Positions 3,475 to 40,694 of a stretch of DNA of 64,000 nt are shown piece by piece; the first letter of the stretch is position 1, and each line of letters starts with the position of its first letter. The position numbers and the translations under genes were made by a program. The stretch spans positions 248,001 through 312,000 of the forward strand of contig NZ_JAJLQW010000001.1 in assembly GCF_025548535.1 (NCBI RefSeq), written 5' to 3'. The notes beneath the pieces were generated by a model. It made no database searches. It saw only the letters and a list, made by a program, of their open reading frames with translations, and was not told the origin of the DNA. The stretch comes from Undibacterium sp. Jales W-56. Lineage in GTDB: Bacteria > Pseudomonadota > Gammaproteobacteria > Burkholderiales > Burkholderiaceae_D.

Positions 3475-3558
3475 TGCAGATCGGTGAGGCAGATCGATGA
3501 TGCAGCGCATCAGACTTTAAAACCAGGCTCTACTCAGTGGTACAGAAAAGGAACCAGC

Positions 3559-23806: not shown

Positions 23807-24262
23807 TTATTCAGTTGCCTGATGCTCGGATGGCAGATCCAGGTCTTCAACAATTTCATAGGTATGCGTCATCGCGGCGGTTTTTTCGAGCATGATCGAA
23901 GCCGAGCAATACTTTTCATGCGAGAGTTTAATCGCACGTTCGACCAGATTCGGTTTCAGATTGCGGCCGCGGACGATGAAGTGGAAATTGATTTTGGTGA
24001 AAATCTTAGGTTCCGTCTCGGCGCGCTCGGCTTGCAGTTTGACTTCGCAGCCCCGGATATCCTGCTTGCTTTTACGCAAAATCAGTACCACGTCGTAAGC
24101 AGTGCAGCCGCCCGTGCCGAGTAATACCATTTCCATCGGGCGCGGCGCCAGGTTGCGGCCGCCGCCATCGGGCGCGCCGTCCATCAAGACCGCATGACCG
24201 GAACCTGTTTCTGCCAGAAATGACATGCCTGACAAGCCTGTCCAACGTACTGTTGCTTCCAT
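23807..24262 (-). CDS. OsmC-family peroxiredoxin-like protein
   Basis: A 151-aa cytoplasmic OsmC/Ohr-superfamily protein. The two conserved cysteines are in GTGGCTAYDV (about residue 54) and EKYCSASIML (about residue 116). This arrangement belongs to the OsmC/YhfA-like branch, whose members may reduce organic peroxides with thiols. Stands alone, convergent with the thrB transcript. No redox regulator is adjacent. Confidence 0.88.
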   Translation of the reverse strand: MEATVRWTGLSGMSFLAETGSGHAVLMDGAPDGGGRNLAPRPMEMVLLGTGGCTAYDVVLILRKSKQDIRGCEVKLQAERAETEPKIFTKINFHFIVRGRNLKPNLVERAIKLSHEKYCSASIMLEKTAAMTHTYEIVEDLDLPSEHQATE

Positions 24263-24487
24263 GATTGATCTCGCCTAACTAAAAAAATAATGAATCTATC
24301 TGCGTGGCCAATTGTAACGCAGCATGGCAAATGGCATAGGGACACAATTTTAGTGGAAGCCGTGACGGATAAGGATTAATCGGAGTTGAGACTTTGATAG
24401 AGAAGCGGAAATGTTGTAAATCTGGATGATTCGTGAGCAAATTTTCATTAAATTGTAAAAATATGAAAATATTCTGATCTTTTTACC

Positions 24488-24516
24488 TTGCACTGCACAA
24501 ATTATTGTCCTATTAT
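24488..24516 (+). promoter_or_regulatory. Sigma-70 promoter of the small RNA candidate
   Basis: A -35 box TTGCAC and a -10 box TATTAT are separated by exactly 17 bases. The start site is predicted near 24523-24524. Confidence 0.72.
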
Positions 24517-24523
24517 TGACTCA

Positions 24524-24630
24524 TCGGTTAGTTACAAAGTGTTTGCAAAATTGTTGTAGCTCACCAGGCAATTGTCTCCTCCGCCTCCTAGGTGGATTCA
24601 GCCCGAAGCTCAGACTTCGGGCTTTTTTTT
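24524..24630 (+). ncRNA. Small RNA candidate with anti-Shine-Dalgarno-like CU-rich loop
   Basis: A free-standing transcription unit of about 105 nt: sigma-70 promoter, no reading frame, and a strong terminator (AGCCCGAAG / CTTCGGGCT plus eight T). At 24575-24589 it carries TCTCCTCCGCCTCCT, with two CCTCC words identical to the anti-Shine-Dalgarno end of 16S rRNA, followed by CCTAGG and GGTGG that could pair with part of it. From memory this resembles the Rfam family named Betaproteobacteria toxic small RNA, whose members carry an anti-SD motif; I could not check it. It lies between the osmC-like gene and rplM. A role in sensing or limiting translation is inference. Confidence 0.7.
24600..24630 (+). 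terminator. Terminator of the small RNA candidate
   Basis: A perfect 9-bp stem AGCCCGAAG / CTTCGGGCT with a 6-base loop (CTCAGA) and a run of eight T. Confidence 0.92.
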
Positions 24631-24681
24631 GCCTTTTCGCCGTATTTTACGTCGTTCAGGTGCTCACATTTTAAACAATGC

Positions 24682-24710
24682 TTGCACTAAGTCTTTGAAA
24701 ATACTATAAT
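24682..24710 (+). promoter_or_regulatory. rplM-rpsI promoter
   Basis: TTGCAC at -35 and a consensus TATAAT at -10, with a 17-base spacer. The -35 box is the same as in the upstream RNA promoter. Start site predicted near 24717. Confidence 0.85.
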
Positions 24711-24716
24711 TTCCGA

Positions 24717-24829
24717 CTCTCTATTAGCCCAAGAGAGAAGTTACAAGGGAGAGTCTGCCAGGCAGGGACGGCAGAACCACCAGAGCAACCAAGATTACAG
24801 GGCGTTTTTAACTCTTACTAGGATTCATC
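24717..24829 (+). promoter_or_regulatory. Structured rplM leader
   Basis: The 113-base leader contains two hairpins: CTCTCT / AGAGAG (24717-24737) and TCTGCC / GGCAGA (24754-24775). E. coli L13 is known to repress its own operon through the mRNA leader. Whether these hairpins act the same way is inference. Confidence 0.45.
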
Positions 24830-25258
24830 ATGAAAACCTTTTCCGCAAAAGCACATGAAGTGCAGCGCGACTGGTTCGTGATTGACGCGACGGACAAAGT
24901 ACTCGGACGTGTTGCCAGCGAAGTGGCACTCCGTTTGCGCGGCAAGCACAAACCTGAATTTACTCCTCACGTTGACACGGGCGATTTCATCGTCGTAATC
25001 AATGCAGGTAAACTGCGTGTTACCGGTACTAAAGCTCTGAACAAGACTTACTACCGTCACACCGGCTACCCAGGCGGTATCTACGAAACTAATTTCCAGA
25101 AAATGCAAGCGCGTTTTCCAGGCCGTGCACTCGAGAAGGCAGTTAAAGGCATGTTGCCTAAAGGCCCACTCGGCTACGCGATGATCAAGAAGCTGAAAGT
25201 GTACGCTGAGGCAACTCATCCGCACACTGCGCAGCAACCTCAAGTACTCGACATCTAA
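24830..25258 (+). CDS. rplM: 50S ribosomal protein L13
   Basis: The 142-aa L13 protein of the large ribosomal subunit. The family signatures are clear: the N-terminal [19 protein letters not shown] and the central [23 protein letters not shown]. First gene of the universally conserved rplM-rpsI pair, with nine bases before rpsI. Driven by a near-consensus promoter and a structured leader. Codon use is strongly biased, as expected for a highly expressed gene. Confidence 0.98.
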
Positions 25259-25267
25259 GGACTCGCC

Positions 25268-25660
25268 ATGATCGGTAATTACAACTACGGAACTGGCCGT
25301 CGCAAGAGCGCAGTTGCTCGCGTATTCCTGAAATCCGGCAGCGGCAAGATCGTTGTGAACGGCAAACCAGCCAATGAGTATTTCTCTCGTGAAACTGGCT
25401 TGATGGTTATTCGTCAGCCTTTGGAATTGACTAACCACCTCGAAACTTTCGATATCATGGTTAACGTCCACGGCGGCGGCGAATCCGGCCAAGCCGGTGC
25501 GGTTCGTCACGGTATCACCCGTGCCTTGATCGACTACGAAGCAACATTGAAGCCAGAGCTGTCAAAAGCCGGTTTCGTTACTCGCGATGCCCGCGAAGTT
25601 GAACGTAAAAAAGTCGGTCTGCGCAAAGCACGTCGCGCAAAACAGTTCTCCAAGCGTTAA
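25268..25660 (+). CDS. rpsI: 30S ribosomal protein S9
   Basis: The 130-aa S9 protein of the small ribosomal subunit, with [18 protein letters not shown] at the N terminus, [15 protein letters not shown] in the middle, and the invariant C-terminal ending KQFSKR that reaches the ribosomal P site. Cotranscribed with rplM and followed by a strong terminator. Confidence 0.98.
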
Positions 25661-39380: not shown

Positions 39381-40694
39381 ATGAAATTCAAATCGAATGC
39401 CGTCATTTTGGCACTCCTCGCTACAACTTCACTGTGCGGTTCCGCACATGCGGTCACCGAAATCAGTTGGTGGCACTCGATGACCGGGGTATTGGGTGAG
39501 CGCGTCACCGGACTCGCGGAGCAGTTTAACAAGAGTCAGTCCGACTATAAGGTAGTCGCCGTCTACAAAGGCAGTTATGACGAAGCCATGGCAGCCGCCA
39601 TTGCCGCGTTTCGGGCAGGGAATGCGCCGCATATATTGCAAGTATTTGAAGTCGGCACTGCAACCATGATGTATTCCAAAGGCGCGATTAAGCCAGTCTC
39701 CGAAGTCATGAAACTCGCGGGGGAACAATTCGATGCCTCGGTGTATATCCCCGCGGTGGCCGGTTATTACACCTCACCGAAGGGTGAAATGGTGTCTTTC
39801 CCATTTAATAGCTCGACCACGGTGTTTTATTACAACAAGGATATGTTCGCCAAGGCAGGCATGAATCCGGACAAGGCGCCGTCCACCTGGCAGGAAGTCG
39901 TGGCCGCCGCCGCACGCTTGAAAGCGAATGGCGAAAAATGCGGCTTCACGACCGGCTGGCAAACCTGGGTGCACCTGGAAAGCTTCTCGGCCTGGCACAA
40001 CGTCGAGTTTGCCTCCAAAGCCAATGGCTTCGGCGGCCTGGATGCGCGTCTGAAGTTTAATAGTCCTTTGCATGTCAAGCATATCGAGAATATGGCGAAC
40101 TGGGCGAAACAAGGTTACTTCACTTACGCCGGTCGCAAGAATGAGCCGGAAGCGAAGTTCTATTCAGGCGAATGCGGCATGCTGACTTCATCGAGTTCGG
40201 CTTACGGCAGTGTCAGCAAAAACGCCAAATTCAAATTCGCGGTCGCGCCTTTGCCGTATTACTCCGACGTCGCCGGTGCGCCGCAAAATACGATTATCGG
40301 CGGTGCCTCCTTGTGGACCATGAACGGTAAAAAGAATGAGGAGTACAAGGGCATCGCCAAGTTTTATAAATTCTTATCGCAGCCGGAAGTCCAGGCGAAA
40401 TGGCATCAGGAAACAGGCTATCTGCCGATCACGAATGCGGCCTACGAGCTGACTAAAAAATCGGGTTTTTATGACAAGACGCCGGGTCCGAATGTCGCGG
40501 TCCAGCAAATGATCGTCAAGACTACCGATAAATCGCGCGGCATTCGTCTGGGGAGTTTTGTCCAGATACGCACGATTATGGATGAGGAGCTGGAGTCAGT
40601 CTGGGCAGGCAAGAAATCTGCCAAGGAAGCACTCGATACTGCCGTTGCACGCGGCAATGAGTTATTAGAGCGCTTTGAAAAAGCGAACAAATAA
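39381..40694 (+). CDS. ugpB: sn-Glycerol-3-phosphate ABC transporter, substrate-binding protein
   Basis: The 437-aa periplasmic binding protein with a signal peptide (residues 1-24, ending AHA). The mature start VTEISWWHSMTGVLGERV is the typical UgpB opening, and residues such as FNSSTTVFYYNKDMF are conserved. First gene of ugpBAEC. Ugp is a Pho-regulon system in E. coli; a GTCATAA word at 39294-39300 resembles half a PhoB box, but the second half is poor. A hairpin just after the stop may give higher expression of this gene than of the permeases. Confidence 0.94.
   Translation: MKFKSNAVILALLATTSLCGSAHAVTEISWWHSMTGVLGERVTGLAEQFNKSQSDYKVVAVYKGSYDEAMAAAIAAFRAGNAPHILQVFEVGTATMMYSKGAIKPVSEVMKLAGEQFDASVYIPAVAGYYTSPKGEMVSFPFNSSTTVFYYNKDMFAKAGMNPDKAPSTWQEVVAAAARLKANGEKCGFTTGWQTWVHLESFSAWHNVEFASKANGFGGLDARLKFNSPLHVKHIENMANWAKQGYFTYAGRKNEPEAKFYSGECGMLTSSSSAYGSVSKNAKFKFAVAPLPYYSDVAGAPQNTIIGGASLWTMNGKKNEEYKGIAKFYKFLSQPEVQAKWHQETGYLPITNAAYELTKKSGFYDKTPGPNVAVQQMIVKTTDKSRGIRLGSFVQIRTIMDEELESVWAGKKSAKEALDTAVARGNELLERFEKANK

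Follow-up and report, generated by a model that had tools for sequence, protein, structure and literature searches.

Related small RNAs and the PhaR regulon

Cuckoo RNAs, which carry CCUCCUCCC, are CU-rich small RNAs (sRNAs) complementary to ribosome-binding sites (RBS), and the RNA described here is likened to them by description. For the Rfam family RF02278 (Betaproteobacteria toxic sRNA) toxicity in E. coli was reported, as cited in PMC5688073; growth slowing and RBS pairing of these "toxic" sRNAs were known. The double-hairpin RNAs of Burkholderia cenocepacia, including ncS27, have two hairpins, a CU-rich Site 1 and a terminator (PMC5688073; PMC4603805), as has the RNA described here. ncS27 adjoins BCAL3348a/BCAL3349 (PMC4603805), BCAL3348 being a ribosomal-protein gene (PMC5688073). 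It was shown to slow growth, it was predicted to pair with RBS (PMC5688073) and it affects carbon-source genes (PMC10987360). S17 of Bordetella pertussis is Hfq-dependent and processed by RNase E and represses genes at their RBS; BP2158 is a direct target and many transporters are affected (PMC11722255). The NmsR sRNAs of Neisseria, which are compared here by description only, were described in PMC5688073 as possessing CU-rich stretches complementary to RBS and as lying in tandem.

The second system to which the locus is compared is the regulon of PhaR (PhbF). In Herbaspirillum seropedicae, PhbF represses phasin, binds polyhydroxybutyrate (PHB) granules and leaves the footprint TG[N]TGC[N]3GCAA (PMC3206438), and PHB was reported to release PhaR (PMC9049629). 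The known members of this regulon are genes of PHB proteins. MmgR of Sinorhizobium meliloti is an sRNA tied to PHB and repressed by the PhaR homologue AniA; in contrast to the RNA proposed here, it belongs to the alphaproteobacterial family alpha-r8, a different RNA family, is activated by NtrC and acts on phasins (PMC8401924). A review of 2021 described the riboregulation of PHB in Cupriavidus necator as undeciphered (PMC8401924).

Anatomy and family membership of the sRNA

The window analysed here is a stretch of 64 kb of the Undibacterium sp. Jales W-56 genome. It encodes, on the + strand, a predicted CU-rich RNA of ~107 nt; an earlier note on this DNA had described a promoter TTGCAC-17-TATTAT, a transcript of ~105 bases and a strong terminator, all of which are present. 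The sigma-70-type promoter spans 24488..24516 (-35 box TTGCAC, 24488-24493; 17-nt spacer; -10 box TATTAT, 24511-24516), and transcription would start near 24523. The stricter rule of the prediction program does not list this promoter; its sequence and spacing are kept in congeners and the 17-nt spacing also occurs in Herbaspirillum and Paraburkholderia. A 5' leader hairpin, GGTTAGTTACAA...TTGTAGCTCACC (24526..24565, + strand), is obtained by folding the window sequence, and leader hairpins with different stems are found at the same place in the loci of other Undibacterium, of Burkholderia and of Paraburkholderia. The CU-rich segment TTGTCTCCTCCGCCTCCT follows at 24572-24589. It contains Site 1, UUGUCUCCUCC (24572..24582, + strand), which is supported by conservation and accessibility and is complementary to GGAGGAGACAA ribosome-binding sites; its start would be the 5' end of the predicted processed form. 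Hairpin 1 (UCCGCCU CCU AGGUGGA) lies at 24580..24596, and the intrinsic terminator, identified by terminator prediction, consists of a 9-bp stem and a T-run (24600..24631, stem 24600-24623), both on the + strand.

The earlier note had related the RNA to the toxic betaproteobacterial sRNAs with anti-Shine-Dalgarno motifs and proposed an Rfam search. This search bears out the relation: RF02278, the sole Rfam match across the 64 kb, is matched over the full length of the model (1-64) with 58.6 bits (E 3.2e-9; gathering score 50), corresponding to an sRNA body at 24573..24630 on the + strand. As expected for the family, terminator prediction and folds give a double hairpin ending in a terminator, and in the short form Site 1 provides an exposed CU-rich, RBS-complementary stretch, the second such stretch being mostly paired. 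The window RNA is thus an RF02278 member, for which transcription and toxicity in E. coli are predicted from the family. It shares with S17, for which RBS-directed repression was demonstrated (PMC11722255), the 5' CU-rich element and a short body within a longer precursor. S17 differs in being flanked by a glycosyltransferase gene and coq7 and in being Bvg-regulated, and it was described in PMC11722255 without mention of PhaR or PHB.

Both CCTCC words to which the earlier note had drawn attention are in the sequence; the second, however, is not free. In the window copy the loop of hairpin 1 has shrunken to CCU and the second CCUCC is mostly buried, paired in the stem UCCGCCU/AGGUGGA, so that the two free anti-SD words characteristic of a global anti-SD inhibitor are not found in the fold. 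Part of Site 1 is paired in the full-length fold; in a fold of processed length, Site 1 is open except for the UCC of its last bases. These predicted folds fit activation by processing as published for S17 (PMC11722255), without proving that processing occurs.

The earlier note would have given up its proposal if the CU-rich segment were not conserved outside the terminator; UCUCCUCC (Site 1) is kept in 91/93 syntenic copies. The conservation expected for the CCTCC words thus holds for Site 1, as it does for the promoter in congeners, and only partly for the second word, found in 66/93 syntenic copies. In Polynucleobacter the second CCUCC was lost by another route, leaving an AAACAUA loop. Since the second word is buried here and lost in Polynucleobacter, Site 1 is regarded as the conserved active part. 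RNAalifold returned no structure on the alignment of core sequences, because variable terminator lengths misalign, and hairpin conservation was assessed by folding each sequence separately. The hairpin 1 stem is retained with altered sequence in relatives (CCACC/GGUGG, GUCAC/GUGAC, CCAUC/GAUGG, CCACU/AGUGG), which is good evidence for a conserved RNA structure. Independent loss of the second anti-SD loop, with Site 1 retained, was observed both in Polynucleobacter (L139, L144, L204, L214, L225, L230, L233) and in Undibacterium (L156, L042, L043).

Genomic position and the link to rplM

The sRNA lies between a conserved osmC-like gene on the - strand (23807..24262; PF02566, synteny), which is outside the sRNA, and the conserved rplM gene (24830..25258, + strand), followed by rpsI at 25268-25660. 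It precedes rplM, which shares its strand, by ~200 nt. In 44/78 genomes of the order with a family match, among the matches listed, rplM is preceded on its strand by such a match at a distance below 1.5 kb. The order osmC/sRNA/rplM occurs in named loci of Undibacterium, Herbaspirillum, Noviherbaspirillum, Glaciimonas, Collimonas, Paraburkholderia, Caballeronia, Cupriavidus, Polynucleobacter, Limnobacter and Formosimonas, and osmC is present in the examined flank of 63/80 named rplM loci. By rplM identity and by its named neighbours, the window belongs to Undibacterium or close to it. In Burkholderia the distance from rplM is larger (>600 nt), and no family copy was found upstream of rplM in the loci of Massilia, Janthinobacterium and Duganella. 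The window copy is likely the orthologue of ncS27, judged by gene order, because ncS27 adjoins BCAL3348a/BCAL3349 and the Burkholderia cepacia complex (Bcc) locus L208 has the order osmC-sRNA-rplM with a predicted transcript close to the published 92 nt of ncS27. It differs from the Bcc locus by its collapsed hairpin 1 loop and by the second CCUCC that is not exposed and, unlike that locus, has a PhaR-type operator. The window RNA is an additional member of a known family in a conserved position.

That position, kept across the order, together with the SD-complementary CU-rich motif and the toxicity of the family in E. coli (as cited in PMC5688073), is what speaks for the ribosome-linked role that the earlier note had considered, i.e., broad binding to SD regions or mimicry of 16S rRNA, by which translation would be matched to ribosomal-protein supply. 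We regard this role as very unlikely. Behind the sRNA terminator, rplM-rpsI has its own promoter, TTGCAC-17-TATAAT (24682..24710, + strand; TTGCAC 24682-24687, TATAAT 24705-24710). The -35 box emphasized in the earlier note is indeed the same, yet the promoters differ, and a PhaR-type site is absent from rplM promoters (see below). Furthermore, 3/4 of the copies in this genome lie elsewhere than at rplM, and the second CCUCC is buried or lost in the window copy and in Polynucleobacter. A 16S mimic or global block of translation is also disfavoured by relatives, as 92 genes are raised when S17 is lost and exponentially growing E. coli shows no toxicity when S17 is overexpressed (PMC11722255). 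Coupling to ribosome supply was rejected on the grounds that no operator is shared with rplM and that copies exist elsewhere, and the link to rplM looks positional.

Even less probable is a role in cis, in which the terminator would attenuate readthrough into rplM and the RNA would be a leader by-product. The short distance on a common strand and the strength of the terminator would suit it; against it stand the rplM promoter placed between terminator and gene, the distance of more than 600 nt in Burkholderia, family copies without rplM and the action in trans of the published relatives.

The remaining three of the four RF02278 members of this genome lie in tandem in a single intergenic region of contig C16 (C16:71072-71551; L002-L004), and tandem arrays also occur in congeners. 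A separate observation concerns the rplM leader of ~115 nt (24711-24829), which may be a cis-regulatory leader since BCAL3348 is among the ribosomal-protein genes with short 5'-UTR transcripts (PMC5688073).

A phasin-type operator at the sRNA promoter

Overlapping the -35 box is a PhaR/PhbF-type operator, CCTTGCACTGCACAAAT (24486..24502, + strand), with the near-palindromic core TTGCACTGCACAA (24488-24500), whose left half is the -35 box. Both TTGCACTGCACAA and the strict form TTGCRNYGCACAA resemble the footprinted PhbF site of H. seropedicae (PMC3206438), and as in the phasin promoters of this regulon the operator with its TGC[N]3GCA core overlaps the promoter, the difference being that the product would be an sRNA. 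In the 4.2-Mb genome the strict form occurs at three places, namely once at the sRNA promoter and twice in the promoter of phasin 1, and the phasin 2 promoter carries close variants; thus both phasins encoded in the genome have the operator motif in their promoters. The genome also encodes a PhaR/PhbF homologue (PF07879, 105.9 bits).

For comparison across genomes, 50 sites taken solely from phasin promoters served to train a weight matrix; they were chosen by the pattern TGC-N3-GCA-N-[AC]-A, which was itself suggested by sRNA promoters; doubled sites of this pattern are found in nearly all phasin promoters examined. Matrix scores were taken over the 160 nt that precede the syntenic sRNA body, with a cut-off at 99% of a shuffled null. 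The window operator reaches 12.8 bits (99% null, 8.7), a value attained by 0.6% of random 176-nt stretches and by 1.4% of gene upstream regions in this genome; its score is middling and not among the strongest. In PhaR-bearing genomes the operator is found at 32/35 syntenic sRNA promoters versus 1/7 in PhaR-lacking genomes (Fisher p 1e-4), the sole exception, G141, being a genome that is 85% complete. Collapsed to families, the numbers are 18/18 and 0/3 (p 7.5e-4). Column-permuted matrices found at most 4/35, and in the named loci 32/42 sRNA promoters have the operator as compared to 0/42 of the neighbouring rplM promoters. A PhaR-type site of 13.4-14.0 bits adjoins each of the three tandem RNAs of this genome. 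In four further genomes, where nearly every scored copy lies away from rplM, a site is less frequent (12/21). The control signal that family copies appear to have in common is a phasin-type operator, not a ribosomal one, and predicted PhaR/PhbF control of the sRNA promoter is strongly supported by genome comparison. A PhaR link for the RF02278 family was not found in the main texts searched.

The rplM-side copy has lost the operator in three loci of Burkholderia sensu stricto (L203, L208, L212), in some Undibacterium (L154, L156) and in Cupriavidus (L229); its control by PhaR is therefore not general. This bears on the possibility that the RNA is an ordinary RF02278 sRNA, that TTGCAC..GCACAA is merely a common -35 region and that any growth-phase response arises by other routes, with no PhaR control at the locus. 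The Burkholderia sensu stricto loci would fit it, since they lack the site and yet ncS27, the orthologous RNA, is made in biofilms and during growth arrest (PMC5688073; PMC10987360), as would the modest rank of the window operator. Nevertheless, we consider it unlikely, as a matrix whose training used no sRNA data detects the site in PhaR-bearing genomes and not in PhaR-lacking families, permuted matrices fail, rplM promoters have no site even though the window rplM promoter also carries TTGCAC, and family members are located in the 3' ends of phasin genes.

Family-like RNAs behind phasin genes

Weak family matches near phaR were found in G040, G087, G131, G093, G136 and G146. In all of these but G146, a double-hairpin RNA with UCUCCUCC lies 2-70 nt behind an ORF that adjoins PHB genes (L317 3091; L318 3269; L319 851; L320 3375; L321 3029). 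Four of these five ORFs are phasins by Pfam, one of them barely above the cut-off, and the fifth (L320 2955-3356) reads as phasin-like. Operators are present upstream of each of the five phasin-side RNAs; in G146, a solitary RNA follows two operators. As the double hairpins directly follow phasin ORFs, RNAs of the RF02278 kind are apparently also made from phasin transcripts, as 3'-UTR sRNAs, if the weak matches are true relatives.

Proposed circuit and predicted targets

It is probable, in our judgement, that PhaR/PhbF represses the sRNA until PHB accumulates and that the sRNA, once made, acts through Site 1 to repress mRNAs for the uptake and catabolism of carbon sources. With little PHB, free PhaR would block the sRNA promoter at its -35 region, as at phasin genes. 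Upon accumulation of PHB, PhaR would move onto the granules and the RNA of ~107 nt would be transcribed and probably processed to ~59 nt, starting at Site 1. Selected mRNAs whose ribosome-binding sites are GGAGGAGACA-like, most of them serving the uptake and breakdown of carbon sources, may then be bound by Site 1; pairing would lower their translation, constituting a brake on carbon intake as the store fills. The complete circuit in this organism is one that we infer by joining two sources: family, position, conservation, operator and operator-PhaR co-occurrence come from this analysis; processing, Hfq dependence, target repression and release of PhaR by PHB come from papers on relatives. For Hfq, one tblastn against ~29% of the genome gave no match.

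The assignment of targets draws mainly on the published relatives ncS27 and S17. Target prediction on 996 genes (~29% of the genome) gave a modest excess, with 65 versus 39 +/- 13.5 genes at <= -12 kcal/mol. Candidate targets with AGGAGACA-like sites include genes for a hydroxyphenylpyruvate dioxygenase, a periplasmic binding protein, an MFS transporter, an amidohydrolase and an acyl-CoA dehydrogenase. With 25 occurrences against 21 for a permuted control, AGGAGACA starts are not overrepresented in this genome. Since the excess is weak and such starts are not enriched here, the target step is one that we infer. Co-evolution of Site 1 and RBS was addressed in 150 genomes of the order by comparing AGGAGACA-N0-5-ATG with the permuted AGGAGAAC. 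Genomes with strong RF02278 matches have relatively more of the AGGAGACA RBS (p 9e-6 by genome, 0.005 by family); the enrichment is absent within families (p 0.27), the effect lying between families, and co-evolution is suggestive only.

In a wider form, to which we incline only slightly, RF02278 sRNAs would be a core part of the PhaR/PhbF regulon throughout the order, namely its RNA arm: released jointly with the phasins and in some cases processed from phasin 3' UTRs, they would repress carbon-uptake mRNAs with a AGGAGACA RBS and thereby form a feedback loop from storage to intake in betaproteobacteria. The tie to PhaR would supply a physiological signal, the filling of the carbon store, as well as a circuit open to direct test, and it would add to the PhaR targets a new kind that is relevant to bioplastic producers.

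Besides the sRNA operator, the window contains further PhaR-matrix matches at 40274-40290 (13.2 bits) and at 3496-3514 (11.9/11.2 bits, both strands). Strong PhaR-type intergenic sites of 20-24 bits beyond the phasins were observed at C12:168966, C12:378711, C12:223916 and C1:71759, which may mark further members of the regulon.
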